64,000 bases of DNA from Pantoea nemavictus (GTDB taxonomy: Bacteria > Pseudomonadota > Gammaproteobacteria > Enterobacterales > Enterobacteriaceae). Made by a program: the position numbers and the translations under genes. Numbering within the stretch: position 1 is the stretch's first letter; every line of letters begins with the position of its first letter. Under the pieces are notes generated by a model. That model saw only the letters and a program-made list of their open reading frames with translations. It was not told where the DNA came from and did no database searches. The stretch spans positions 186,001-250,000 of the forward strand of contig NZ_JBBGZW010000001.1 in assembly GCF_037479095.1 (NCBI RefSeq), read 5' to 3'. Shown here in pieces: positions 3,039 to 16,013 of this stretch.

Positions 3039-3056
3039 ATAAACAAAACTCATACC
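3039..3056 (+). promoter_or_regulatory. Shared 18-bp motif, copy 1 (candidate GalR box)
   Basis: ATAAACAAAACTCATACC occurs 213 bases before the transporter start. It matches the copies at 8460-8477 and 11995-12012 with at most two differences between any pair. It contains AT-N11-AT, which fits the T-N11-A rule for LysR-type boxes. Binding by the island's LysR protein is inferred. Confidence 0.6.
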
Positions 3057-3269
3057 TTGATAACCATTTTATGGCAGACAAACCTACGCTGCCCCCCTAA
3101 TTTGGTAATCGAAGTCGAAACAAAAATACCTTTAACAAGCTGTTTTAACAGCAAAAAATAATAATAACTCTCCCTACCGTCGGGTTAAAGTGATGCCGTT
3201 AATGTCCATTAGCGCAGAGAAAAGTCTTAACCCGGCGACGTAATTAATAAAAAAATCAGAGCGTACCCT

Positions 3270-4649
3270 ATGAGCAATCACGACATTATCGATGTAAAAG
3301 GCTGGATCGACGCCCGCCCGATCACCGGATACCAGTGGCTGACCCTCGCCCTGTGTTTCATCATCATCATGTTTGATGGCTACGACGCGGCAGCAATGGG
3401 TTTCATTGCACCGGCCCTGATTGAAGATTGGGGCATTAGTCATGCGGAAATGGGACCTATTCTTGGTGCCGCCATGTTTGGCGTGGCGATTGGCGCGCTG
3501 ATCGCTGGCCCGTGGTCGGACAAATTGGGGCGCAAGCGCGTGCTGCTGCTGTCGATTGCCGTGTTTGCCTGCTTCAGCCTGCTGAGCGCCTTCGCCCGCA
3601 CGCCGCTGGAAATGGGTGTGTTACGTTTTCTCACCGGTCTGGGTCTGGGTGCGGTGATGCCAAACTGCGTGACGCTGGTGTCGGAATATATGCCAGAGCG
3701 CCGCCGCAGCCTGATGATCACCGTGATGTACAGCGGCTTTAATATCGGATCCGGGCTGGGCGGATTCATTGCTGCTGGCATGCTGCCGCACTATGGCTGG
3801 CAAGCGGTATTGGGCTTTGGCGGCCTGCTGCCACTGCTGATGTTGCCCCTCCTGCTGTGGCTGTTACCCGAATCGGCCATGTATATGGTGGTACGTAAGG
3901 TCAGTCGCGACAAAATTGCCGCCGTGCTTAAGCGCCTTGGCGGTGAGTTTGCCGCAGGGACTGCCTTTGTGCTTAATGCACCGGTGATCCCGAAGAAAGC
4001 CCAGGTGCTGCAACTGTTCAGCCGTGGTTATGCGGGCGGTACGCTGGTGCTGTGGCTGACCTACTTTATGGGACTGTTTGTCATCTACCTGCTCAACGGC
4101 TGGTTGCCGACCATTATGCGTTCCGGCGGTGTGACGCTGGAACGCGCAGCGATTGTTGCCGGCTTATTCCAGCTGGGTGGAACGGTTGGCGGCCTGCTGG
4201 TCGGTGGGCTGATGGACCGGTTTAAAGCTAAATACGTTATTGCCCTGTTCTATCTACTCGGCAGCTTCTGCCTGGTATCACAGGGAATCTGGGGCTTTGG
4301 CCCTAATCTGCTGGCACTGCTGGTCTTCATGGCAGGTATCTGCATCAACGGGGCGCAAACCGGCTTACAGGCATTTTCTCCGGCTTTCTACCCCACCGAA
4401 ATGCGCGCCACTGGCGTGTGCTGGATGCACGGTATTGGCCGTAGCGGTGCCATTATCAGCTCCTCTCTGGGCGGCGTGCTGCTCGGCGTATTTCCTGGGC
4501 AAACCGCTATTTTTATCGTTTTGTCGCTCCCGGCAGTTTTGGCGGCACTCTCCATCACCCGACATCACCCTGCGCAGGTGGCCCGTCAGGTCAAAGGCAT
4601 CGACCTTAATGACCTGCCGTCCCTGTCGCGTACCCTGAATAATCGATGA
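3270..4649 (+). CDS. MFS aromatic acid:proton symporter (AAHS family), probable gallate uptake
   Basis: The 459-residue product has about twelve membrane helices. The N-terminal pattern FDGYDAAAMGF and the loop GPWSDKLGRKRV between helices 2 and 3 are typical of AAHS symporters such as PcaK, which import benzoate-type acids with protons. The symmetric loop GLMDRFKAKYV is in the second half. It leads the unit with gallate dioxygenase 17 bases downstream, so gallate or a close relative is the likely substrate, matching GalT of Pseudomonas putida. Substrate assignment is from context. The start ATG follows an AT-rich leader without a strong ribosome site; no better start was seen. Confidence 0.88.
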   Translation: MSNHDIIDVKGWIDARPITGYQWLTLALCFIIIMFDGYDAAAMGFIAPALIEDWGISHAEMGPILGAAMFGVAIGALIAGPWSDKLGRKRVLLLSIAVFACFSLLSAFARTPLEMGVLRFLTGLGLGAVMPNCVTLVSEYMPERRRSLMITVMYSGFNIGSGLGGFIAAGMLPHYGWQAVLGFGGLLPLLMLPLLLWLLPESAMYMVVRKVSRDKIAAVLKRLGGEFAAGTAFVLNAPVIPKKAQVLQLFSRGYAGGTLVLWLTYFMGLFVIYLLNGWLPTIMRSGGVTLERAAIVAGLFQLGGTVGGLLVGGLMDRFKAKYVIALFYLLGSFCLVSQGIWGFGPNLLALLVFMAGICINGAQTGLQAFSPAFYPTEMRATGVCWMHGIGRSGAIISSSLGGVLLGVFPGQTAIFIVLSLPAVLAALSITRHHPAQVARQVKGIDLNDLPSLSRTLNNR

Positions 4650-4666
4650 AATAGAGGTCACAACTC

Positions 4667-5926
4667 ATGGCTAAAATCATAGGCGGTCTGGCAGTTTCTC
4701 ATACACCTACCATTGGCTTTGCGGTCGATCACAACAAGCAGCAGGAAGGTGCCTGGGCACCGATATTCGATGGCTTTGCGCCGATGCAGCGTTGGCTGGA
4801 GGAGAAGAAACCGGACGTGCTGCTGTATGTGTTTAACGATCACGTCACCTCGTTCTTTTTCGATCACTACTCAGCCTTTGTACTGGGCATTGATGACGAC
4901 TATGCCGTCGCCGATGAGGGGGGTGGCGCGCGCGATCTGCCGCCGGTAAAAGGCCATGCGGCGCTGTCGCAACATATTGGTGCCAGCCTGATGGCCGATG
5001 AGTTCGATATGTCATTCTTCCAGGACAAAGCGCTGGATCACGGCCTGTTCTCTCCGCTGTCGGCGCTGGCGCCGTGGCAAGGCGGCTGGCCAATGCAGGT
5101 AGTTCCGCTGGCGGTGGGCGTTTTACAGTTCCCGATTCCAACGGCGCGACGTTGCTATAAATTGGGCCAGGCGCTGAAACGCGCGGTGGAGAGTTTCCCC
5201 GAAGACCTGAAGGTTGCCGTGGTGGCGACCGGTGGCGTCTCACATCAGGTACACGGCGAGCGCTGCGGCTTCAACAATCCAGAATGGGATGCCCAGTTTA
5301 TCGATCTGCTGATCAACGACCCTGAGCGTCTGACCGAAATCACTCTGGCGGAATACGCCACGCTCGGTGGTCTGGAAGGCGCCGAAGTGATCATGTGGCT
5401 GATCATGCGCGGTGCGCTGTCGGCTAACGTTGAGAAACTGCATCAGGACTACTATCTGCCGTCAATGACCGGCATCGCCACGCTGATCCTCGAAAACCAA
5501 TCGCGCGAGGCACCGGTAGATGTGCATCAGCGCCAGCGCGATAAGATCAACCTGCAGCTCAGCGGGGTGGAAAAACTGCCAGGCACCTATCCCTTTACTC
5601 AGGCGCGCAGCCTGAAAGCGCTGCGAATCAACCGCTTCCTGCACCGCATGATTCAGCCGGAATGGCGTAAGCGTTTCCGCGCGGAGCCGCAGGCGCTGTA
5701 TCAGGAAGCCGGACTGACCGCTGAAGAGCAGGCGCTCATCACCCAGCTCGACTGGCGTGGCATGATCCACTACGGCGTCAGCTTCTTCCTGCTGGAAAAA
5801 CTGGGTGCAGTGGTCGGCGTGTCTAACCTGCATATCTACTCGGCGATGCGTGGCGAAACGCTGGAGCAGTTCCAGCAGACGCGCAATCAACAGGTGCTCT
5901 ACTCTGTGGCGGGGAAAGCAGACTGA
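4667..5926 (+). CDS. galA: Gallate dioxygenase (class III extradiol, GalA/DesB type)
   Basis: The enzyme opens the ring of gallate with O2 and Fe(II), giving the keto form of 4-oxalomesaconate. The 419-residue chain fuses a LigB-like catalytic N-terminal domain with a LigA-like C-terminal domain, the single-chain arrangement and length known for GalA and DesB. Candidate iron ligands are H12 (SHTPTIG), H59 (FNDHV) and E240 (GGLEGAEV), with possible catalytic H125 and H193 placed by analogy to DesB. AGAGGT precedes the start. Its stop shares one base with the next start (TGATG), indicating translational coupling. Full pathway genes nearby support gallate rather than protocatechuate as substrate. 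Confidence 0.93.
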   Translation: MAKIIGGLAVSHTPTIGFAVDHNKQQEGAWAPIFDGFAPMQRWLEEKKPDVLLYVFNDHVTSFFFDHYSAFVLGIDDDYAVADEGGGARDLPPVKGHAALSQHIGASLMADEFDMSFFQDKALDHGLFSPLSALAPWQGGWPMQVVPLAVGVLQFPIPTARRCYKLGQALKRAVESFPEDLKVAVVATGGVSHQVHGERCGFNNPEWDAQFIDLLINDPERLTEITLAEYATLGGLEGAEVIMWLIMRGALSANVEKLHQDYYLPSMTGIATLILENQSREAPVDVHQRQRDKINLQLSGVEKLPGTYPFTQARSLKALRINRFLHRMIQPEWRKRFRAEPQALYQEAGLTAEEQALITQLDWRGMIHYGVSFFLLEKLGAVVGVSNLHIYSAMRGETLEQFQQTRNQQVLYSVAGKAD

Positions 5927-6765
5927 TGTTTACGCAACCGGTCATTGACTGCCATCACCACGTTTTTGATCCCAAAAACTTTCCCTGGGCGCCCGAAAGC
6001 GCTTATAACCCGGACGGGCACGAGCTGGCGACGCCAGATTACTATCGCGCCGTGATGCAGGTCTACAACATCCGCCATTCGCTGATTGTCGGTCCGACCT
6101 CGGGTTACAACACCGACAACCGCTGCCTGCTGAATACCATCAAGCGCGGTGAAGGCCGTTTCAAGGGGATTGCGGTCACGCCGCGTGATGTCGATAGCGA
6201 TACGCTCGCCAGCCTGAAAGCGCAGGGCATTGTCGGGATCGCGCTTAACGTGGCGATGCTGGGCACCGAACCGTTTATCCAGCTGGATGGCCTGATGGGC
6301 AGGCTGGCGGAGCTGGATCTGTTTGCCCAAATCCAGGTGCAGAACGACCAGTTGCTGGCACTGATGCCGCTGCTGTCACGCACCCGCGCGCGCCTGCTGA
6401 TTGATCACTCAGGTCGACCGGACGTCAGCGCAGGCCTGAAGCAACCGGCGTTTCAGGCGCTGCTGTCGCTGGCCGATCAGCAGCGCACCAGCGTGAAACT
6501 GTCCGGGCTGGCGAAATTTTCCCGCCAGCCTTATCCCTTCAGCGATGGTCATCCCTATCTGCTGGCACTGCTGCAGGCGTTCGGTGCCGAAAACTGCATG
6601 TGGGGATCCGACTGGCCCTTCCTGCGCGCCAGCGAACGCATGGATATGGGCACGCAACTGCTGCTCATAGAACAGCTGATCCCAGACGAAAAGAGCCGCC
6701 GCCAGGTGCTGTGGCACACGCCAAAGCGGCTGTTTGGTTTTACTGAACTACAGGAGTCACGATGA
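5926..6765 (+). CDS. Amidohydrolase, 2-pyrone-4,6-dicarboxylate lactonase-like
   Basis: The 279-residue product is a TIM-barrel metal-dependent hydrolase. It has the N-terminal DCHHHVF metal motif at residues 9 to 15, LIDHSGRPD near 165, [10 protein letters not shown] near 190 and WGSDWPF near 225. This is the layout of the LigI/PDC lactonase branch. In lignin and gallate pathways LigI opens 2-pyrone-4,6-dicarboxylate to the 4-oxalomesaconate level. That lactone forms as a side product when gallate or 3-O-methylgallate is cleaved, so a salvage role next to galA is reasonable. The gene overlaps the next by ATGA. The precise substrate is inferred; other lactones or cyclic esters are possible. 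Confidence 0.72.
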
Positions 6766-7193
6766 GAACCATCTACGTTTTGAACGGCCCGAACCTCAAT
6801 TTGCTGGGTACCCGTGAGCCGGAAACTTACGGTGCCGATACGCTCGAGAGCGTGGAAGCGCTGTGCCGGGCGACGGCCGAAGAGTTGGGCGTTGCCATTG
6901 AGTTTCGTCAGACTAACCACGAAGGTGAAATGATCGAGTGGATCCAGCAGGCACGCCTGCAGGCGCAGGCGCTGGTGATCAATCCAGCGGCATGGACGCA
7001 CACTTCGGTGGCGATCCGTGATGCGGTCACTGGCGTGGCGCTGCCGCTATGGGAAGTGCACATCACGAACGTGCATAAACGTGAGCCCTTCCGTCACCAC
7101 TCCTATCTTTCGGACGTCGCGCAGGGTGTCATCTGCGGCTACGGCATTCGCGGCTATCGCTATGCGTTGATGGAAGCAGCACGCGCAGGCTAA
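6762..7193 (+). CDS. Type II 3-dehydroquinate dehydratase
   Basis: The dodecameric type II enzyme interconverts 3-dehydroquinate and 3-dehydroshikimate. The 143-residue product carries the full signature: [17 protein letters not shown] with the catalytic arginine and tyrosine, [16 protein letters not shown], then EVHITN with the general acid histidine and REPFRHHS. Enterobacteria normally use a type I AroD for aromatic biosynthesis, so a type II enzyme inside a gallate operon suggests a catabolic role like QuiB. It overlaps the lactonase gene by four bases. Its stop codon directly abuts that of the convergent regulator gene, with no base between them. Confidence 0.9.
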
Positions 7194-8420
7194 TTATTCG
7201 CCCTGCCCGCACACTTCACGCAGGCAGCGGATCAACGCATCCGCTGTCGGAGAGTGCAGGCAGCCCGCGCGCACCGTCAGCCCGATGGCGCGTTCGGTAT
7301 CCGGTAAAGGCACCGGCAACGCCACCAGCGCGCCGGATGCCAGCTCAACTTCCAGCTGATGAGCGGAGACCGCCGCCAGCATATCCGACTGCACTAGCAA
7401 GCCTCGCACCAGTGCCAGATCGCCGGTTTCCACCAGCGGATCGGGCGCCGGAATGCCCATCGCCTGGAAACTGTTATTCAGCAGATAGCGCGCTGGCGTT
7501 GCCGAACGCGGCAGAACCCAACGCGCAGCGCGCAGATCGTCGGTAGCAATCTCGCGTCCCACCAGCGGATGATCGTGGCGCGCCAGCAACACCATACGCT
7601 CGGAGAACAGCGTTTCGCGCGTGACGTCCAGCGCGTCTTCATCACGGCGCAGCGCACCAAAGATAAAATCAATATCGCCAGAGCGCATTTCTGCGGCCAG
7701 TACGCCAAAGGCACTTTCACTGGTCACCACACGCACGCCCGGATAACGCGCCGTCAGCATCACGATCGCCTGCGGCAGAATGCGCGTACGTCCCAGCGGC
7801 AGCGCACCGACGCGTACGGTCCCCTCCAGAATCCCGCTACGCGCGGCAATATCGGCCGGAATATGGCGCAGTTCATTCAGAGCCCGCCGTACGTAAGGCT
7901 CGATTTCACGTCCGGCCAGCGAGGGCATCATGCCATGTGGCGTACGCTCCAGCAGCGCGAGGCCGGCGCCATTCTCCAGCACGCGCAGCGCGGCGCTCAC
8001 CGCCGGTTGACTGAGTCCGAGACGCGCCGCCACCGTCTGCATATGCCGCGTTTGACACAAGGTGATAAAAATTTGCAGGCGACGCACGTTAAACAGCCAC
8101 AGCGGTTCCGCATCGTTACGTTGTGCGCCGCGCCCCTGTAGTTTTGCCAGGCGCTGCGGTACCTGATGCAACTCCTCAATCGCGCGTAAGGCGCGCGGCA
8201 GCACACATTTGCCAAAGTCAGTTAGCATCATGCCGCCAGCGTGGCGCTCAAACAGCGTGACGCCTAACGTGAGTTCCAGGTCGCGAATGGCACGCGTAAT
8301 CGCCGACTGGGTGCGAAATAATTCATCTGCCGCACGAGAAACACTGCCCTGGGCTACCACCTGACTAAAGGCTCTGATTTGCATCAGGTTTGTCAGTTCC
8401 TGACTCGCATTTTCCGCCAT
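7194..8420 (-). CDS. LysR-type regulator with two N-terminal HTH domains (probable GalR)
   Basis: The product is 408 residues from the ATG at 8420-8418, about 100 longer than a usual LysR protein. Two complete LysR winged-helix domains are visible: residues about 10 to 70 (FSQVVAQGSVSRAADEL, LFERHAGGMMLTDFG) and about 110 to 170 (LCQTRHMQTVAARLGLSQ, LLERTPHGMMPSLAG). A LysR effector domain starts near residue 200 (VRVGALPLGRT). I rejected earlier in-frame starts up to 8597 because LysR homology begins only after MAENASQ and those starts would reach into the divergent galB. It probably controls the island through the shared 18-bp motif, one copy of which is in its own promoter region. Effector and mode are inferred. 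Confidence 0.88.
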   Translation of the reverse strand: MAENASQELTNLMQIRAFSQVVAQGSVSRAADELFRTQSAITRAIRDLELTLGVTLFERHAGGMMLTDFGKCVLPRALRAIEELHQVPQRLAKLQGRGAQRNDAEPLWLFNVRRLQIFITLCQTRHMQTVAARLGLSQPAVSAALRVLENGAGLALLERTPHGMMPSLAGREIEPYVRRALNELRHIPADIAARSGILEGTVRVGALPLGRTRILPQAIVMLTARYPGVRVVTSESAFGVLAAEMRSGDIDFIFGALRRDEDALDVTRETLFSERMVLLARHDHPLVGREIATDDLRAARWVLPRSATPARYLLNNSFQAMGIPAPDPLVETGDLALVRGLLVQSDMLAAVSAHQLEVELASGALVALPVPLPDTERAIGLTVRAGCLHSPTADALIRCLREVCGQGE

Positions 8421-8459
8421 TTTTCCCTGCCCACTTTCTCCACCGATCGATGTCGCAAT

Positions 8460-8477
8460 ATAAATAAAACGCATACC
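8460..8477 (+). promoter_or_regulatory. Shared 18-bp motif, copy 2 (candidate GalR box)
   Basis: ATAAATAAAACGCATACC lies in the 129-base region between the divergent regulator and galB, 40 bases from the regulator start and 72 from galB. One site could serve autorepression and galB activation, as is common for LysR proteins. Confidence 0.6.
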
Positions 8478-8549
8478 CGCTGCAATCAAATGAATTATCC
8501 GCACCGCGCCGGCAGTGACAGCATGGAAAAAACAGCGGAGGAGTATGCC

Positions 8550-9290
8550 ATGACTGATAACACCCCAAAAAAAACCGCGCTGGTGGTCAGCGCTCACTCA
8601 GCGGATTTCGTCTGGCGCGCGGGTGGCGCCATCGCGCTTCATCATGCGCAGGGCTATGAGGTTCACGTTGTCTGTCTCTCATTTGGCGAGCGCGGTGAAT
8701 CGGCCAAGCTGTGGCGTAAAGGGGAGATGAGTGAGGCGAAAGTGAAAGCGGCCCGGCGCAGCGAGGCGCAGGCGGCGGCCGACATTCTGGGTGCCAGCAT
8801 CGAATTTTTTGACCTCGGCGATTATCCGCTGCGTGCCGACAAAGAAACCCTGTTCCGTCTGGCCGACGTTTACCGCCGGGTGCAGCCGCACTTTGTCCTG
8901 ACGCACTCTTTGCAGGATCCCTACAACTACGATCATCCGATGGCCACGCATCTGGCGCAGGAAGCACGCATTATTGCCCAGGCTGAAGGCTATCGTCCGG
9001 GCGAAAAAATCGTCGGTGCACCGCCGGTCTACTGCTTCGAACCGCACCAGCCAGAGCAGTGCAGCTGGAAACCGGATGTGCTGCTGGATATCACCTCGGT
9101 GTGGGATAAAAAATATCAGGCGATTCAGTGCATGGCCGGGCAGGAACATCTGTGGGAATACTACACGCGTGTGGCACAGCAGCGTGGCGTGCAGGCCAAG
9201 CGTAACGTCGGGATCACCAGTCAGCGCGATATCGTTTATGGCGAAGGCTATCAAAGCATCTTCCCGCGCGTAACGGAGGATCTGGCATGA
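8550..9290 (+). CDS. galB: 4-oxalomesaconate hydratase (PIG-L/LmbE-type, GalB)
   Basis: GalB is a zinc-dependent hydratase of the PIG-L deacetylase superfamily. It adds water to 4-oxalomesaconate to give 4-carboxy-4-hydroxy-2-oxoadipate. The 246-residue product has the N-terminal metal motif [13 protein letters not shown] (H-x2-D), FFDLGDYPL in the middle, and [10 protein letters not shown] as the third metal/active-site segment. I chose the ATG at 8550 because GGAGGAG at 8537-8543 precedes it by six bases; upstream in-frame codons lie in the promoter region. It overlaps galC by four bases (ATGA). The co-occurrence with galA, galC and galD makes the gallate assignment strong. Confidence 0.9.
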
Positions 9291-10000
9291 GCCTCATCGG
9301 TAAAAAAGGCGTGGCGGTACGCCATATTCAACGTGCTGCTGCGGTGGATATTGATGCCCTGGCCCGTTCAGGTGTCGCCACCGTGCATGAAGCGCAGGGG
9401 CGCACAGGCTTGCTGGATCCCGCCATTCGCCCCATTCAGCAGGATTGTGGCATTGCTGGCAGTGCGATCACCGTGCTGGTGGCACCAGGCGATAACTGGA
9501 TGTTCCACGTGGCAGTGGAATTGTGTCAGCCGGGCGATGTGCTGGTGGTAGCGCCCACCTCACCGTGCAGCGACGGCTTTTTTGGCGATCTGCTGGCAAC
9601 CTCGCTTCAGTCGCGCGGTGTACGCGGACTGGTGGCGGATGTTGGGGTGCGTGATAGCCGCACCTTGCGCGCAATGGGGTTCGCGGTCTGGTCGCGTGCG
9701 GTATATGCGCAAGGCACCGTGAAAGAGACGCTCGGTTCGGTCAATGTCCCGCTCGTGTGCGCCGGACAGCTGGTCTGGCCCGGTGACGTGATCGTGGCCG
9801 ATGACGATGGCGTGGTAGTGGTGCCGCGCAGTGACGCCGCCAGCGTGGCAGAAAACGCGCGTCAGCGTGAAGCGCTAGAGGAGAGTAAACGCGCCCGCCT
9901 GGCAGACGGTGAACTGGGGCTGGATATTTACCAGATGCGCCCGCGCCTGGCGGAAAAAGGCCTGCGCTATCTCGACACGCTTGAGCAACTGGAGGAGTAA
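9287..10000 (+). CDS. galC: 4-carboxy-4-hydroxy-2-oxoadipate aldolase (GalC/LigK)
   Basis: This RraA/HMG-aldolase-fold enzyme uses a divalent metal to split 4-carboxy-4-hydroxy-2-oxoadipate into pyruvate and oxaloacetate, the last step of gallate catabolism. The 237-residue product has the family core: HEAQGRTG near residue 35, [31 protein letters not shown] segment around 105 to 125 with the conserved G-x-R-D-type residues, and [13 protein letters not shown] near 170. The length is typical. It overlaps galB by four bases and is three bases from galD, so these genes should be one operon. Confidence 0.93.
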
Positions 10001-10003
10001 ACC

Positions 10004-11092
10004 ATGCGCCAGCGTCGCATTCCCTGCTTGTTGATGCGCGGCGGCACCTCAAAAGCCGCCTGCTTTCTGGCCCAGGATCTGCCAGCCGATCCCACAGCGC
10101 GTGACCGGGTGCTGCTGGCGGTGATGGGATCGCCCGATACCCGTCAGATAGATGGCCTGGGGGGCGCCGATCCGCTGACCAGCAAAGTGGCGATCGTCAG
10201 CGCGTCCAGCCGCGACGATGCCGATGTCGATTATCTGTTTGCCCAGGTCAATGTCGATCGCCCCAGCGTCGATTACGGACAAAACTGCGGCAATATTCTC
10301 GCTGCCGTCGGCCCCTTCGCCGTCGAGCGCGGGCTGGTTGCGGCGGGCCGTGAATGCACCACGGTGCGCATTTTTATGCACAACAGCGGGCAAATTGCCG
10401 AAGCAACGTTCGCCACGCCCGGCGGGGAAGTCGACTATGACGGCGAACTGCGCATTGACGGCGTACCGGGCACGGCGGGCGAGATCGCCCTCACCTTCAA
10501 CGATATTGCGGGATCGAGCTGTGGCGCCCTGCTGCCGACCGGTCAACCGCGCGATCGCTTTGACGGCATCGACGTCACCTGCATCGACAACGGTATGCCG
10601 GTGATCCTGGTGCGAGCTGCGGATGTTAATCGCAGCGGCTATGAAAGCCGCGACGAATTAGACAACGACAGCGAGCTGAAACAGCGGCTGGAGTCGATTC
10701 GCCTGCAGGCTGGGCCACGCATGAATCTGGGTGATGTCAGCCAGCGCACGGTGCCGAAAGTGACCCTGCTGGCCGAGGCACGTTACGGCGGTGCGATCAG
10801 CTCACGCACCTTTATTCCCCACCGCTGCCACGCCTCGATTGGCGTGCTCGGCGCGGTGAGCGTCGCCAGCGCCTGTTTGATTCCGGGTAGCGTCGCCGAC
10901 GGTCTGGCGCGTACCAGCGATGCGCCTCAGCAGCGTCTGAGCGTGGAACATCCGAGCGGTGAGTTCAGCGTGCTGCTGCAGCGCAGCGGCGATAACCCGC
11001 TGGCGGGCTGCGGTCTGCTGCGTACCGCACGTGCCATTTTTGCCGGTGAGGTGTTGATTCCGGCGGCGATTTGGCCATTCAGCAAGGAGTAA
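10004..11092 (+). CDS. galD: 4-oxalomesaconate tautomerase (PrpF-type, GalD)
   Basis: GalD interconverts the keto and enol forms of 4-oxalomesaconate so that the product of gallate dioxygenase can be hydrated by GalB. The 362-residue product is a PrpF/diaminopimelate-epimerase-fold isomerase. Family motifs are the N-terminal LLMRGGTSK, GSPDTRQIDGLGG near residue 45, DYGQNCGN near 88 with the active-site cysteine, and HRCHASIG near 275. It begins three bases after galC, with GGAGG just before, and ends three bases before the next gene. Related PrpF enzymes act on methylaconitate, but the neighbours support this substrate. Confidence 0.92.
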   Translation: MRQRRIPCLLMRGGTSKAACFLAQDLPADPTARDRVLLAVMGSPDTRQIDGLGGADPLTSKVAIVSASSRDDADVDYLFAQVNVDRPSVDYGQNCGNILAAVGPFAVERGLVAAGRECTTVRIFMHNSGQIAEATFATPGGEVDYDGELRIDGVPGTAGEIALTFNDIAGSSCGALLPTGQPRDRFDGIDVTCIDNGMPVILVRAADVNRSGYESRDELDNDSELKQRLESIRLQAGPRMNLGDVSQRTVPKVTLLAEARYGGAISSRTFIPHRCHASIGVLGAVSVASACLIPGSVADGLARTSDAPQQRLSVEHPSGEFSVLLQRSGDNPLAGCGLLRTARAIFAGEVLIPAAIWPFSKE

Positions 11093-11095
11093 TGG

Positions 11096-11980
11096 ATGAA
11101 CATCACGTTTATCGGTTTTGGTGAAGCGGGCGGCATTCTGGCCCATGACTTACAGGCGCAGGGCAATGCGGTGACGGTATGGGATCGCAAAGCCCTTGAG
11201 GCGGAGAACCTGCCCGCGTTGCGGCAAAAAGCGCAGCACAGCGGCGTGCGGTTGGCCGACTCGCTGGCTGAAGCGCTGCAGGATGCCGTACTGGTGTTCT
11301 CCACGGTCACCGCATCGCAGGCACTGAACGTGGCGCAGCAGGCCGCAGCGCTATTACACAATGGCCAGCATTTTCTCGATCTCAATTCCGTGGCACCGCA
11401 TACCAAACGCGCCGCGGCGGAGGTGATTAGCGCCAGCGGTGCCAGCTATGTCGACGTGGCGGTGATGGCGCCGGTGCCGCCAAAGCGCCTGGCCACGCCG
11501 CTGCTGATTGGCGGCGTTCAGGCTGCTCAAGTGCAGCCGCTGCTGCAACAGCTCGGTTGCAACAGCCGCCTGCTGGGTTGCGAAGTGGGTGAAGCCTCGG
11601 CGATTAAGATGTGCCGCAGCGTCATGATTAAAGGACTGGAAGCGCTGACCACCGAATGTCTGAGTGCGGCGCGGCAGTACGGCGTTGAAGAAGCGGTGCT
11701 CGACTCGCTGCACGCCAGTTTTCCTTCGCTTGGCTGGAACGATCAGCTGCCGCACTACCTGATCAGCCGCGTGGCGGAACACGGCCAGCGCCGCGCTGAA
11801 GAGATGCAGGAAGTGGTGAAAATGCTGCAAGACGTCAACGTACCGGCCGCGATGAGCGCAGCAATTGTTGCGACACAGCAAGGGCTGATTGATGCGTTAA
11901 ACGCACATTCCCTGCGCTATCAACAACTGACACCGTTCATTTGGCAAGAGACGCTGGATAAGATCTATCCACCTCAATGA
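11096..11980 (+). CDS. NAD(P)-dependent oxidoreductase, DUF1932 type, unknown substrate
   Basis: The 294-residue product has an N-terminal Rossmann domain of the 6-phosphogluconate/3-hydroxyisobutyrate dehydrogenase superfamily (MNITFIGFGEAGGI, then FSTVTASQAL and DLNSVAPHTK). It has a helical C-terminal domain of the DUF1932 type (IKMCRSVMIKGLEALTTEC). The conserved lysine of this superfamily appears as K in ASAIKMCRS. It is the last gene of the galBCD unit. It could reduce or oxidise a hydroxy-acid intermediate of the pathway, or a substituted gallate precursor; nothing in the sequence decides this. It is not one of the canonical P. putida gal genes as I know them. Confidence 0.8.
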   Translation: MNITFIGFGEAGGILAHDLQAQGNAVTVWDRKALEAENLPALRQKAQHSGVRLADSLAEALQDAVLVFSTVTASQALNVAQQAAALLHNGQHFLDLNSVAPHTKRAAAEVISASGASYVDVAVMAPVPPKRLATPLLIGGVQAAQVQPLLQQLGCNSRLLGCEVGEASAIKMCRSVMIKGLEALTTECLSAARQYGVEEAVLDSLHASFPSLGWNDQLPHYLISRVAEHGQRRAEEMQEVVKMLQDVNVPAAMSAAIVATQQGLIDALNAHSLRYQQLTPFIWQETLDKIYPPQ

Positions 11981-11994
11981 GTTATACGGATAGA

Positions 11995-12012
11995 GGTATG
12001 CGTTTTGTTTAT
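11995..12012 (-). promoter_or_regulatory. Shared 18-bp motif, copy 3 (candidate GalR box)
   Basis: The reverse strand reads ATAAACAAAACGCATACC. It is 83 bases before the heme-binding protein gene, in the only gap between the galBCD unit and the dehydrogenase unit. Its presence here is the main sequence evidence that the dehydrogenase module belongs to the gallate regulon. Confidence 0.6.
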
Positions 12013-12095
12013 CGGCAATTGTTTACATTTTTGCAACAGCGTAGCGTAAGCGAGACGAGAAGCACGTTTAAAACAATAAATATCGGAAGCAAAAA

Positions 12096-12551
12096 ATGAA
12101 GAGTAGAGCATCTGTCGCCCTTTCCCTGCTGCTGGCAGCGGGTATCGGCCAGGCCAGCGCCGCCGCGCTGGACGCCAGCCACACCAACCAGGTCATGACC
12201 AGTGTGAAAAATAGCATCAGCGCGCAACACAGTACCGGCTGCGTGGCGGTGGTCGATGCCAGCGGCACGCTGCTGGCCTTCCAGCGCCTTGACGGCGCGT
12301 CGCCGGGTTGTGTGGATGCCGCAATAGGTAAAGCCCGCACCTCGGCGCTGTATCACGCCCCCTCACTGAAATTTATGCAGCGTTTGCAGAGCGGTGAAAC
12401 CACCGTTCTCGCCATCCCGCATGCCGTCGCACTCGGCGGGGGCTTCCCGCTCCAGCTGCAGAGTGAAGTGGTCGGCGCCGTCGGCGTCAGCACCCCCAAA
12501 CAGGAACTGGATAATCAGGCTTCAGAGGCTGCCGCTCAGGCGCTGAAGTAA
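12096..12551 (+). CDS. Exported GlcG/HbpS-type heme-binding protein
   Basis: The 151-residue product starts with a Sec signal peptide (KSRASVALSLLLAAGIGQASA) and continues with a GlcG/HbpS domain. Typical segments are GCVAVVDASGTLLAFQRLDGA near residue 50, DAAIGKARTSALY near 72 and the glycine-rich GGGFPLQ near 112. Members bind heme or related cofactors, and many are encoded next to periplasmic dehydrogenases. Here it leads a unit with a dehydrogenase and a cytochrome c, so a role in heme handling or as an accessory of the complex is reasonable but unproven. GGAAGC before the ATG supports the start. Confidence 0.8.
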   Translation: MKSRASVALSLLLAAGIGQASAAALDASHTNQVMTSVKNSISAQHSTGCVAVVDASGTLLAFQRLDGASPGCVDAAIGKARTSALYHAPSLKFMQRLQSGETTVLAIPHAVALGGGFPLQLQSEVVGAVGVSTPKQELDNQASEAAAQALK

Positions 12552-12570
12552 CTTCAAGGAATCTTTTCTG

Positions 12571-13095
12571 ATGACTCTTTCACGCCGCCGGCTATTGACC
12601 GGCACGGCGGGCCTGCTGGTGGCTGGCGTCCTGACGCAGGTGCTGCCCGGCAACCTCGCTTTCGCGGCCCCCCCGCTGGCCGCCGCGGTTGCGCCCTCCG
12701 CGAGTTTTCGCGCAATCTCCATCACTCTCACCGGGCTGGAACAGCCGGATACTCTACTGGCCCAGCGCCTGTACAGCTGGCTGCACGAGCATGTCCCGCA
12801 GCTTGATAGCCAACTCGATACGCTCAGCACGCTATTGCAGCAGCAGCCCGCCGCCAACGGCAGCACGCTATTGACGCTGTTGAGCTCCCAGCCCAAGGCA
12901 TTGAACGACCTTTATCAGGCGCTGGTTTCCGGTTGGTATCTGGGCGTCGTCGGCCCGCTGCCACGGCCGCAATGCATCGCCTTCGAAAATATTGTCAGCT
13001 ATCAGCGGGTACGCGATTGGCTGTTACCACCGAGCTACGCGCCGGGGCAACCTAACTTCTGGACGCAACCGCCAGCAAGGAGAGCACATGTCTGA
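12571..13095 (+). CDS. Tat-exported small subunit of a membrane-bound FAD dehydrogenase
   Basis: The 174-residue product has a twin-arginine signal (SRRRLLTGTAGLLVAGV) and then a small helical domain. It fits the small (gamma) subunit family of FAD-dependent gluconate, sorbitol and fructose dehydrogenases. That subunit helps fold the catalytic subunit and carries it across the membrane in folded form. Consistently, the catalytic subunit gene follows with an eight-base overlap and has no signal of its own. AAGGA at 12556-12560 is the ribosome site. Similarity is strongest in general layout and in the C-terminal LPPSYAPGQPNFWTQPP. Confidence 0.8.
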   Translation: MTLSRRRLLTGTAGLLVAGVLTQVLPGNLAFAAPPLAAAVAPSASFRAISITLTGLEQPDTLLAQRLYSWLHEHVPQLDSQLDTLSTLLQQQPAANGSTLLTLLSSQPKALNDLYQALVSGWYLGVVGPLPRPQCIAFENIVSYQRVRDWLLPPSYAPGQPNFWTQPPARRAHV

Positions 13096-14689
13096 TTCAT
13101 TAAGCGCCGATGTGGTGGTGATTGGCGCCGGTATTGCCGGTTCACTGGCGGCACTGAAGATGGCCAACGCTGGCGCGTCGGTGCTGATGCTGGAGTCCGG
13201 GCCGGAGATCAAACGCGACCGCGCGGTGGAATATTTCCGCAACTCGCCGTTTAAAGGCGACTTCACTGAACCCTATCCACCGCAGCCGTGGGCACCGCAG
13301 CCGAAATTTATTCCCAGCGATAATAACTATCTGATCCAGAAAGGCCCCGATCCCTATCGCGCCCAGTATTTGCGCGGTACCGGCGGCACCACATGGCACT
13401 GGGCTGGCCAGGCGTTCCGCCTGTTACCCAACGATATGCGTATTCAGTCGCTATACGGCGTTGGTCGTGACTGGCCGATCAGCTATGCCGAGCTGGAGCC
13501 TTATTACTGTGACGCCGAGTATCAGATGGGCGTATCCGGCGACAGCGATCTGGCTTCTCCACGCTCACGTCCTTACCCACTGCCAGGCATTCCGCTGCCG
13601 TACGGTTTTGATCGCCTGAAGCAGCGTCTCGGTCCGCTGGGTTATGAGGTTGGCATTGGTCCACAGGCGCGCAACAGCATCGCCTATGACGGTCGTCCAG
13701 CCTGCTGCGGCAATAATAACTGCATGCCAGTGTGCCCGATTGATGCGCAGTATCACGGCGGCATAGCGGCACGCAAGGCGCTGGATGCCGGGGTGAAAAT
13801 TGTCACCAACGCGGTGGTGTTTCGCATTGAAGCCGACGATAAAGGCACCATTCAGGCGGTGCATTACCTCGATCAAAACAAAGTGCGCCATCGCGTCACC
13901 GGCAAACAGTTTGTCCTGACGGCGAACGGCATTGAGAGCCCGAAAATCCTGCTGCTCTCCACCAGCGAACGCTATCCGGACGGCATCGCAAATCGTTCCG
14001 GTATGGTGGGGCGTAATCTGATGGATCATCCAGGATCGTCGGTAGAGTTTTACGCCGATGAGCCGGTGTGGTTTGGTCGTGGCCCAATGCGTCCCGGCAG
14101 TATCAATAATCTGCGTGACGGTGATTTCCGCGCTGAACGTTCGGCGCTGCGTATCGACCTCTCCAACACCTCGCCGGTGCGCTATCTCACCGAACGCCTG
14201 GTGCGTCAGGGTTATTACGGCCAGGCGCTCAATGACAAGCTGGCTTTCCAGGCCGAGCGTTTTGTCCAGCTGAAGTGCCTGCTGGAGATGCTGCCGGAAC
14301 CGCAGAACCGCGTCACCCTAAGCAAAACGGAAAAGGATGCCTGGGGCATTCCTCGTCTCGAGGTTCATTACAGCTTCCCGGAATACGTGCATCGCGGCTA
14401 TGACCAGTCAATGGTCGACTTCCAACGCATGGTTAAACAGATGGGCGGAACGGAGGCGATTTACAGCCCACGCGGGGTTTACGACAACAATCAGCACATC
14501 ACCGGCACCATGATCATGGGCAGCAATCCGCAGGATTCGGTGGTGGATGGCCACTGCCGAACTCACGACCACCCGAACCTGTTTATCGCCGGCACCGGCA
14601 TTATGCCCTCAGCGTCGACGGTGAACTCCACCCTGACCGGCACCGCGCTGGCGCTACGCATGGCCGACAGCGTGCTGGCAAGCTTATAA
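13088..14689 (+). CDS. GMC-type FAD dehydrogenase, catalytic subunit with 3Fe-4S motif
   Basis: The 533-residue product is a glucose-methanol-choline oxidoreductase of the three-component dehydrogenase group. It has the FAD motif VVIGAGIAGS at residues 10 to 19, GTGGTTWHW near 98, and the C-terminal MGSNP and STVNSTLTG segments. Cysteines 206, 207, 212 and 216 (CC-x4-C-x3-C) match the 3Fe-4S ligand pattern of bacterial FAD glucose dehydrogenase. Electrons should pass from FAD through this cluster to the cytochrome encoded next, then to quinone. The start at 13088 follows AAGGAG. The substrate is not shown; the family oxidises gluconate, glucose, sorbitol and similar polyols. Gallate neighbours suggest a quinate-type alicyclic acid or a sugar released from galloyl esters. 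Confidence 0.87.
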   Translation: MSDSLSADVVVIGAGIAGSLAALKMANAGASVLMLESGPEIKRDRAVEYFRNSPFKGDFTEPYPPQPWAPQPKFIPSDNNYLIQKGPDPYRAQYLRGTGGTTWHWAGQAFRLLPNDMRIQSLYGVGRDWPISYAELEPYYCDAEYQMGVSGDSDLASPRSRPYPLPGIPLPYGFDRLKQRLGPLGYEVGIGPQARNSIAYDGRPACCGNNNCMPVCPIDAQYHGGIAARKALDAGVKIVTNAVVFRIEADDKGTIQAVHYLDQNKVRHRVTGKQFVLTANGIESPKILLLSTSERYPDGIANRSGMVGRNLMDHPGSSVEFYADEPVWFGRGPMRPGSINNLRDGDFRAERSALRIDLSNTSPVRYLTERLVRQGYYGQALNDKLAFQAERFVQLKCLLEMLPEPQNRVTLSKTEKDAWGIPRLEVHYSFPEYVHRGYDQSMVDFQRMVKQMGGTEAIYSPRGVYDNNQHITGTMIMGSNPQDSVVDGHCRTHDHPNLFIAGTGIMPSASTVNSTLTGTALALRMADSVLASL

Positions 14690-14699
14690 GGACTACCCG

Positions 14700-16013
14700 A
14701 TGAAACCTGTATTTCTTCAGGCCGCTATCGCGCTGGTCCTGATGCAGTGTGCCGTGGCTCAGGCGGCAGACAACGCCGCGCAGATTAAACGCGGTGAATA
14801 TCTGGCACGCGCCAGCGACTGTACCGCTTGCCATACCGCCACCAACGGTCCGCTGTTTGGCGGCGGCTTTGCCGTCAGTACGCCTTTCGGTCAGATCTGG
14901 GGCAGCAATATCTCCGCCGATAAGCAGTTCGGAATTGGTAGCTGGAGTGACGATCAGTTTGTTGCCGCGGTACGCGACGGCATTGGCAAAAACGGTGAGC
15001 AGCTCTATCCGGCAATGCCGTATGACTCCTTCACCAAAATGAAGCGCGACGATGTGCTGGCGATTAAAGCCTATTTACTGTCGATGCCGCCGGTACATCA
15101 GGCCTCACCCCAAACCGACCTGCCGTTCCCATTCAACCAGCGTTGGGGCATGCGCTTCTGGAAGTGGTTTAACTTTGATAAGGGCGAATTACAGAACGAT
15201 GCGCAGCAGAGCGCGCAGTGGAATAACGGTCGCTATCTGGTCGAAGCGCTGGCGCACTGCGGCACCTGTCATACGCCGCGTAATTTGACCATGGGCATGG
15301 ACAGCGATCACGCGCTGGCCGGTGGCGATCTCGGTGGCTGGACGGCGTACAACATTACACCGGACAAGCAGGCGGGCATTGGCAACTGGAGCCAGCAGCA
15401 GCTGGTGACCTACCTGAAAACCGGGTTTGTCGCTAACAAAGCCAGCGCCTCCGGCCCGATGGCCGAAGCGATTGAGCACAGCCTGCAATATCTGCCGGAC
15501 AGTGACTTGCAAGATATCGCTACCTATCTACGCAGCGTCAAGCCACAGGCGGATAAGCAGCAAACCAAGCCGCGTGATAGCTGGGGACAAGCGTCAACCG
15601 CGTTGATTGCACTGCGCGGCGCAGATGACGCAACGCGCAACGCGCAACCCGGCGCGGTGCTGTTTGCCGGTAACTGCGCCAGCTGTCACGGTGCGGAAGG
15701 TGCGGGATCGGGCACGGGCTTCCATGCTTATCCATCGCTGTTCCACCACACCAGCACCGGTGCGACAGATGCACCCAACGTGGTGTCAGTGATCCTCAAC
15801 GGTGTGCATCGTCACATGACGGAAGGCGACGTGTTTATGCCCGCCTTTGCGCCGGAGCTGAGCGATCAGCAAGTGGCTGACGTCAGTAACTTTGTCAGTC
15901 AGCAGTTTGGTAATCCGGCAGCAGCTAAGGTGAGTGCGAAGCAGGTTAAGGAATTAAGGCAGGATGCAAAGCTGGCTTATCCACCCCTCTTCAGTCAGGG
16001 GGATAAGCCTTAA
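14700..16013 (+). CDS. Triheme cytochrome c subunit of the dehydrogenase
   Basis: The 437-residue product has a Sec signal peptide ending near AQA-ADN and three heme-binding motifs: CTACH near residue 41, CGTCH near 189 and CASCH near 326. This three-heme layout and length are those of the cytochrome subunit of membrane-bound gluconate, sorbitol and alcohol dehydrogenases. That subunit takes electrons from the catalytic subunit and passes them to ubiquinone at the outer face of the inner membrane. No strong C-terminal membrane helix is seen; the tail ends AYPPLFSQGDKP. It is the last gene of the island, before a long hairpin. Confidence 0.9.
   Translation: MKPVFLQAAIALVLMQCAVAQAADNAAQIKRGEYLARASDCTACHTATNGPLFGGGFAVSTPFGQIWGSNISADKQFGIGSWSDDQFVAAVRDGIGKNGEQLYPAMPYDSFTKMKRDDVLAIKAYLLSMPPVHQASPQTDLPFPFNQRWGMRFWKWFNFDKGELQNDAQQSAQWNNGRYLVEALAHCGTCHTPRNLTMGMDSDHALAGGDLGGWTAYNITPDKQAGIGNWSQQQLVTYLKTGFVANKASASGPMAEAIEHSLQYLPDSDLQDIATYLRSVKPQADKQQTKPRDSWGQASTALIALRGADDATRNAQPGAVLFAGNCASCHGAEGAGSGTGFHAYPSLFHHTSTGATDAPNVVSVILNGVHRHMTEGDVFMPAFAPELSDQQVADVSNFVSQQFGNPAAAKVSAKQVKELRQDAKLAYPPLFSQGDKP

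Follow-up and report, generated by a model that had tools for sequence, protein, structure and literature searches.

The gallate island and its three motif copies

We analysed a stretch of 64,000 nucleotides of the Pantoea nemavictus genome (contig NZ_JBBGZW010000001.1, positions 186,001 to 250,000; hereafter the window), which carries a gallate catabolism island and, in the promoter gaps of this island, three copies of an 18-bp motif that is very likely the operator of the LysR-type regulator GalR (Table 1). The island consists of galT-galA-amidohydrolase-aroQ running rightward, galR running leftward, galB-galC-galD-dh3 running rightward and, behind these, a periplasmic dehydrogenase unit at 12096-16013. 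An IUPAC pattern scan of the window with ATAAAYAAAACKCATACC gave three exact matches (sites 1, 2 and 3), two on the forward strand and the third inverted, and no further site at up to three mismatches. In 100 shuffled versions of the window, the mean number of sites at up to three mismatches was 0.11, and no shuffle reached three. Compared in pairs, the three sites differ at 2, 1 and 1 positions, and every one of them contains AT-N11-AT. A preliminary description of this stretch had reported the same coordinates, strands, pairwise differences and core, all of which are confirmed without a mismatch to the pattern. It had also placed each copy in the promoter gap of a different transcription unit. 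All three copies do lie in promoter gaps, but they face four promoters (galT, galR, galB and hbpS) rather than three, because site 2 sits between the divergent galR and galB.

In the whole genome (5.19 Mb in two contigs), ten sites were found at up to three mismatches: three exact, none with one mismatch, three with two and four with three. The reversed pattern, used as a control on the same genome, gave 12 matches at up to three mismatches and none at up to one, which indicates that only the exact sites exceed background. Two of the three sites with two mismatches (the pair L004 and L005) were examined for their context, and both were taken as chance matches: one runs across the start codon of a gene for alkaline phosphatase, and the other falls in a gap flanked by Fpg- and RadC-type genes, where small genes were not sought.

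Table 1. Predicted operators, inferred promoters and genes of the gallate island, with the Chimaeribacter arupi gene discussed in the text. Positions are those of the window unless a locus is named.
Feature	Position	Strand	Remark
GalR operator 1 (predicted)	3039..3056	+	ATAAACAAAACTCATACC; 213 bp upstream of galT ATG
galT, aromatic-acid MFS transporter	3270..4649	+	
galA, gallate dioxygenase (LigAB type)	4667..5926	+	NF009904, 838 bits vs cut-off 412
Amidohydrolase, likely 2-pyrone-4,6-dicarboxylate hydrolase	5926..6765	+	top PDB sequence match 2ffi; also 4d8l
aroQ, type II dehydroquinase	6762..7193	+	one of the genome's two
galR, LysR-type regulator with two HTH domains	7194..8420	-	
Inferred galR promoter	8457..8485	-	TTGCAG (8480-8485), 17 bp, TATATT (8457-8462); operator 2 in spacer
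GalR operator 2 (predicted)	8460..8477	+	ATAAATAAAACGCATACC; divergent galR-galB gap, 39 bp to galR ATG, 72 bp to galB ATG
galB, PIG-L-type 4-oxalomesaconate hydratase	8550..9290	+	PF02585 and galR adjacency
galC, 4-carboxy-4-hydroxy-2-oxoadipate aldolase	9287..10000	+	
galD, 4-oxalomesaconate tautomerase	10004..11092	+	
dh3, NAD-binding/DUF1932 dehydrogenase	11096..11980	+	
GalR operator 3 (predicted)	11995..12012	-	ATAAACAAAACGCATACC; inverted, in 115-bp gap before hbpS, 83 bp to its ATG
Inferred dehydrogenase-unit promoter	12019..12047	+	TTGTTT (12019-12024), 17 bp, TAGCGT (12042-12047)
hbpS-like heme-binding protein, first gene of dehydrogenase unit	12096..12551	+	PF03928; signal-like N-terminus
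Small Tat-type hitchhiker (gamma) subunit, FAD-SLDH family	12571..13095	+	PF12318; SRRRLL N-terminus
GMC catalytic (alpha) subunit, 3Fe-4S cysteine cluster	13088..14689	+	
Triheme cytochrome c (beta) subunit	14700..16013	+	three CxxCH motifs
VOC extradiol dioxygenase gene, Chimaeribacter arupi	L062:4229-5215		listed region L062:4226-5323

The motif follows galR across genomes

A GalR search of contigs from named organisms returned 46 loci. The motif was sought at up to four mismatches in 41 of these (L011-L051); the other five (L052-L056), whose GalR matches are partial (26-38%), were excluded. A galB is found in L011-L041, and the motif is located upstream of it in all 31 (23 exact, two with one mismatch and six with two). 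Similarly, 25 of these loci have a galT of at least 68% identity, and the motif is found upstream in 25/25 (22 exact, two with one mismatch and one with two); in L041 the sole galT-like match, of 24%, lacks a site.

We then turned to a family-wide sample of 392 genomes, in which GalR was called at an E value of at most 1e-90 and the motif at up to one mismatch. This sample and the named loci are not independent, since they coincide in G240 (L012), G286 (L017) and G162 (L020), and all P values for co-occurrence are uncorrected for kinship. GalR is present in 38 of the 392 genomes, and 61 motif sites occur in 37 genomes. A site is found in 27 of the 38 genomes with GalR versus 10 of the 354 without it (P about 8e-25). 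Thirty-two of the 34 exact sites are located within 10 kb of galR, one is found in G016, and one is on another contig in G286. The site in G016 is close to one end of a single contig of 5.1 Mb, at the opposite end of which the remainder of the island is found without galT and galA (L071); the site probably belongs to galT on a circular chromosome that was cut within the island. With this placement, 33 of the 34 exact copies belong to gal clusters. Among the 27 sites with one mismatch, 13 are within 10 kb of galR, and two more (G351:C9 and G291:C90) could be recognised from their downstream sequence as galT promoters on broken contigs. The truly unlinked sites at up to one mismatch number 13, as compared with about 21 matches of the reversed control, and thus there is no excess of the motif away from gal genes. 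Sites can also drift, as seen at galT of G222 (L067), where the motif has three mismatches. The preliminary description had proposed to look for conservation of the motif only near these genes, and this is the pattern that the genomes display.

The motif also fits the box predicted for GalR in Pseudomonas. The predicted box of Pseudomonas putida KT2440 is ATAAANAAANNGNAT, and Pseudomonas sp. NGC7 is described as having a similar box with no clear second site, termed ABS (PMC12314914). The prediction came from an alignment of the galB-galR gap of 40 Pseudomonas species; in KT2440 it is a T-N11-A box whose right part, AACGCAT, is repeated in the second site, and the induction of the galB and galT promoters is enhanced by GalR (PMC9942251). 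The GalR effector is named in these papers as the ring-cleavage product 4-oxalomesaconate, not gallate (PMC9942251, PMC12314914), and no GalR binding site is said to have been characterised to date (PMC9942251). Sites 2 and 3 of the window match ATAAANAAANNGNAT fully, and site 1 differs solely by a T at a G position, a variant that is common to most galT sites outside Pseudomonas among the named loci. The box is barely palindromic in the motif logo of the named-locus sites, from which L011 was excluded. The right flanks of the galB and galT operators are conserved without a clear ABS consensus, and the ATAACTCAT stretch beside site 3 is only partly conserved. Taken with the association between the motif and galR, the fit to the published prediction supports the earlier suggestion that the motif is the binding site of the island's LysR regulator.

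The window GalR is 99% identical to the GalR of Pantoea sp. RIT-PI-b, is encoded divergently from galB, and contains PF00126 in two stretches together with PF03466. The description of this protein as a dual helix-turn-helix (HTH) regulator holds insofar as two HTH domains are present, but they are not peculiar to the island, because the dual HTH is common to the GalR relatives examined (the best 120 of 905, of 388-435 amino acids). In these relatives the first HTH is conserved like the second (mean entropy 0.85 versus 0.95 bits). The AlphaFold model of GalR is of high confidence (pLDDT 90.6, pTM 0.87). In a structure comparison that covers residues ~107-408, these residues superpose on full-length LysR regulators, and thus the first 105 residues appear to be an added winged HTH. 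The two HTH domains of one GalR chain might conceivably read the two unlike halves of the box.

The dehydrogenase unit occurs in genomes with GalR

The GMC subunit of the dehydrogenase unit gives full-length alignments with glucose dehydrogenase (8hdd, 6a2u) and with fructose dehydrogenase. Cys206, 207, 212 and 216 of its cluster CCGNNNCMPVC align to Cys212, 213, 218 and 222 of the glucose dehydrogenase chain, and 3Fe-4S cysteine ligands have been described for the Burkholderia cepacia glucose dehydrogenase (PMC6719666). From the sequence alone, the cytochrome has CxxCH motifs at 41, 187 and 326, and the small PF12318 subunit has a Tat-like start, SRRRLL.

A GMC ortholog of at least 75% identity is present in 15 of the 392 genomes, all 15 of which have GalR (P about 3e-17). 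At the genus level, GalR is found in six of the six genera with the ortholog and in 22 of 154 genera overall (P about 4e-6). The converse fails, as 23 genomes with GalR have no GMC ortholog. The unit is near galR in six of the 15 genomes; in the other nine it is on a different contig or more than 150 kb off. Fourteen of the 38 genomes with GalR have an AroQ of the island type (at least 69% identity), and every one of them has the GMC ortholog too (P about 2e-9). Seen from the dehydrogenase, 14 of the 15 ortholog genomes have this AroQ, whether the unit is linked to galR or not; the exception is G004, which has a second AroQ of 47%, and the island-type match of G119 contains one in-frame TAA. 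The window's genome has two type II dehydroquinases, so that the island AroQ looks surplus to biosynthesis. We had considered an argument that AroQ is catabolic because AroD exists and dropped it, as the window's genome gave no type I match and has a second type II copy instead.

Because a dehydroquinase adjoins the periplasmic dehydrogenase, quinate or shikimate may be its substrate. The galloylquinates of plants yield quinate and gallate together, and in a known periplasmic route a pyrroloquinoline quinone (PQQ) quinate/shikimate dehydrogenase feeds 3-dehydroquinate to dehydroquinase. Oxidation of quinate or shikimate by the unit is a tentative proposal, one that we would put below an even chance. 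The unit could instead be unrelated to gallate, an ordinary sugar dehydrogenase of the gluconate or sorbitol type that lies next door. Its best solved relatives are indeed glucose and fructose dehydrogenases, and it is not near galR in nine of the 15 genomes, but this explanation has to contend with the presence of GalR in all 15 genomes even though nine of the units lie elsewhere, and with the co-occurrence of island-type AroQ in 14 of them. We regard it as unlikely, if still deserving attention.

In G115, a paralog of the GMC unit (L057:4017-6383; 53% identity) is located far from galR, and an operator with one mismatch lies ~197 bp upstream of its small-subunit gene. The chance of such a coincidence is roughly 4e-4 when 3.6 Mb per genome and 21 background sites are assumed, and the case is a lead only.

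Operator 3 and the sign of regulation

The GalR box has already been predicted for galB and galT, and is new only for the dehydrogenase unit. This unit lies inside the island in 11 named loci, and the inverted operator precedes hbpS in seven of the 11, being exact in L011, L012, L013, L033 and L036, with one mismatch in L014 and with two in L015. We tested the conservation of site 3 with six of nine site-3 sequences (the window, L013, L014, L015, L036 and L068); L011, L012 and L033, which are close relatives, were excluded. In these six, the motif is the joint-best conserved of the 81 18-bp stretches in the hbpS promoter, and its 16 fixed positions show 96% pairwise identity versus a regional mean of 71%. 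The hbpS promoter was inferred by eye, and its spacing of 17 fits 11/11 aligned sequences, including those of Serratia. The inferred -10 is TAGCGT or TAACGT (3/6 consensus) in sequences with the operator, versus TATTTT or TAAATT (4/6) in Serratia without it.

We consider it highly probable that the motif is the GalR operator, that GalR activates galB and galT and represses galR, and that site 3 adds the dehydrogenase unit to the regulon. At galB and galT, the operator lies in its normal orientation upstream of the promoter, and GalR with 4-oxalomesaconate would activate from there. Operator 2 lies between the inferred -35 and -10 of galR, and for this reason GalR is expected to repress its own gene. 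Site 3, just upstream of the -35, is cautiously read as an activator site; it directly precedes an inferred promoter whose -10 is poor, which would fit activator dependence, and the site may have recruited the hbpS-gamma-alpha-beta flavin adenine dinucleotide (FAD) dehydrogenase unit into the GalR regulon in the Pantoea/Erwinia/Winslowiella lineage.

Several observations weigh against this reading, either as a whole or in the part that concerns site 3. None of the ten more distant GalR loci (L042-L051) has a site upstream of a gal gene at up to four mismatches; five of them (L044 and L047-L050) have a galT of 47-48% yet no upstream site. In the family-wide sample, 11 of the 38 genomes with GalR lack a site with at most one mismatch, and their best GalR matches are 55-60% identical. 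A second (ABS) site was not convincingly found in the window promoters. Operator 3 occurs in only three of the 15 genomes with the GMC ortholog (G000, G240 and G119). Among the named loci, Serratia L020, L022 and L023 lack it upstream of hbpS, and so does L021, an Erwinia metagenome-assembled genome (MAG) that lost hbpS itself. The units away from the island have no upstream site at up to four mismatches in eight of nine genomes, and the ninth (G255) has none at up to one mismatch, the tolerance scanned there. Finally, site 3 is inverted and, as we read the promoters, its distance to the inferred start site is ~15 bp shorter than for operators 1 and 2, and GalR might therefore repress there or do nothing.

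The Serratia genomes G016 and G162 likewise have the unit in the island without operator 3. In L076, one site with four mismatches lies more than 5 kb from the unit. In G222, hbpS begins within ~20 bp of the dh3 end, as estimated from the alignment, and would be read from the galB promoter. Since all 15 ortholog genomes have GalR, and site 3 is absent in Serratia and in the unlinked units, the tie of the dehydrogenase to gallate users appears to be general, whereas its tie via the operator is lineage-specific. The proposal that the motif places the dehydrogenase, the cytochrome and the heme-binding protein under gallate control is thus borne out in part: the operator precedes the unit in seven of 11 loci, but the link is confined to one lineage, and the published effector is 4-oxalomesaconate. 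The unit is probably under GalR control in one group of plant-associated bacteria.

Activation at site 3 is not to be assumed, because the site is inverted and closer to the promoter than sites 1 and 2. GalR could bind there as a repressor or silently, its inverted and promoter-proximal placement blocking the hbpS promoter or failing to help it. LysR regulators can repress from promoter-proximal sites, and site 3 is 6 bp from the inferred -35. Its orientation equals that of site 2 towards galR, where autorepression is expected, and regulation at site 3 may thus have either sign. On the other hand, the slightly poorer -10 in sequences with the operator (3/6 versus 4/6) fits a need for an activator, if weakly, and the operator has been held at zero to two mismatches while its flanks drift. 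A repressing or silent GalR at site 3 seems improbable to us. It is very unlikely that site 3 is a chance or inherited functionless copy carried among closely related islands: it is found in one lineage only and several of the seven loci are close relatives (L011, L012, L013 and L033), but L014, L015, L036 and L068, which are more diverged, retain it at zero to two mismatches, and it shares first place in conservation among the 81 stretches. Hardly credible is a different regulator that binds the motif and happens to act on the island, for although LysR boxes are weakly specific, galR is the sole regulator seen in the island, and the motif both follows galR (27/38 versus 10/354) and fits the GalR box predicted from Pseudomonas.

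A VOC dioxygenase gene behind a predicted operator

In Chimaeribacter arupi (G286/L017), the sole exact operator outside the island is located 90 bp upstream of a gene for an unrelated VOC (type I) extradiol dioxygenase. No galA was found in the island of this species or in a search of its genome, the search having been run without a positive control. Of five kin genomes searched for the VOC gene, four had no match and G103 had only relatives of 30-32%. The best 120 of 6,488 relatives of the protein are 80-90% identical to it; those with a name are annotated mostly as catechol 2,3-dioxygenase or VOC family protein. At an E value of at most 1e-140, the protein was found in six of 349 genomes of the phylum. 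In three of the resulting loci (L084, L085 and L086), galB, galC and galD adjoin the VOC gene and share its strand, and no galA was detected in the 18 kb covered at each locus. In L083 the VOC gene is transcribed divergently from galBCD and a LigB-type gene (44%), and in L087 it lies ~6 kb from galC; in L082, at a contig edge, no gal genes were seen near it. In addition, database protein P0134 is an in-frame fusion of the VOC enzyme to a GalC-like aldolase that is 65% identical to the island GalC. No GalR-type operator was seen in L082-L087 at up to three mismatches. These results suggest that the VOC enzyme probably cleaves gallate or a close analogue, replacing GalA; its role as a ring-cleaver of such a substrate, taken by itself, is reasonably likely.

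Other features of the island

A role of dh3 in the step from dehydroshikimate to gallate is not supported, because dh3 and the island aroQ occur without each other: the Chimaeribacter loci have dh3 but no island aroQ, and L031 and L059 have aroQ but no dh3. The galT leader (window 3057-3269) is long, and its final ~45 bases before the ATG are well conserved among the named loci; at gathering thresholds, Rfam finds no RNA family anywhere in the window, the galT leader included. In L059, L026, L029 and L032, ~2.6-7 kb of additional DNA is found between galR and aroQ. The island proteins of L012, a record labelled Enterobacter ludwigii, are 90-99% identical to those of the window, and G240, with which it coincides, belongs to the window's genus; the record is probably mislabelled. 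In the Erwinia MAG L021, the galD match spans 16% of the protein and the small subunit, GMC subunit and cytochrome are retained; hbpS and dh3 were not found in the search of this locus.

Significance and comparison with known systems

The link between the dehydrogenase and AroQ and the VOC dioxygenase are the strongest new leads from this analysis. A motif predicted in Pseudomonas becomes an operator traceable across orders, from which a gallate regulon could be read in sequence, and it points to two candidate enzymes. One is a periplasmic FAD dehydrogenase that is associated with gallate users and with a second dehydroquinase; the other is a VOC dioxygenase that probably takes the place of GalA. 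Both bear on the use of tannin-derived phenolics by plant-associated bacteria. One may go further and propose a wider GalR regulon in which a FAD-3Fe4S-triheme quinate/shikimate dehydrogenase works with the island AroQ, and in which the operator has captured an unrelated VOC gallate dioxygenase where GalA was lost, in Chimaeribacter arupi. As a whole this combination is speculative and more likely wrong than right. If it were true, gallate and quinate from plants would be used together via a FAD enzyme instead of a PQQ enzyme, and the VOC enzyme would add to the gallate dioxygenases a second class, analogous to the first, that is present in gal operons of more distant proteobacteria as well. 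A literature search at the title and abstract level, mostly of open-access journals, found no report of site 3, of a FAD quinate dehydrogenase or of a VOC enzyme acting on gallate, and no paper on gal genes in Pantoea or Serratia.

The predicted operator resembles that of KT2440 and NGC7 in its box ATAAANAAANNGNAT, its T-N11-A core, its position beside galB (and in KT2440 also galT) and the divergent galR. It differs in that the window operator additionally precedes the periplasmic dehydrogenase unit, in inverted orientation. The distance from the operator to the galT start also differs, being 203-215 bp in 23 loci outside Pseudomonas versus 124 bp in two Pseudomonas loci.

The dehydrogenase unit is similar to the FAD glucose dehydrogenase of Burkholderia cepacia, of the direct electron transfer (DET) type (6a2u), in that both have a GMC alpha subunit with CCGNNNCMPxC, a Tat hitchhiker subunit and a triheme cytochrome c; unlike the B. 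cepacia complex, the window unit is led by an HbpS-like gene and lies beside gallate catabolism and AroQ genes (PMC6719666). Compared with the PQQ quinate/shikimate dehydrogenase, the hypothesis would keep the same feed to dehydroquinase, and the oxidation would here be carried out by a FAD-3Fe4S-cytochrome complex.

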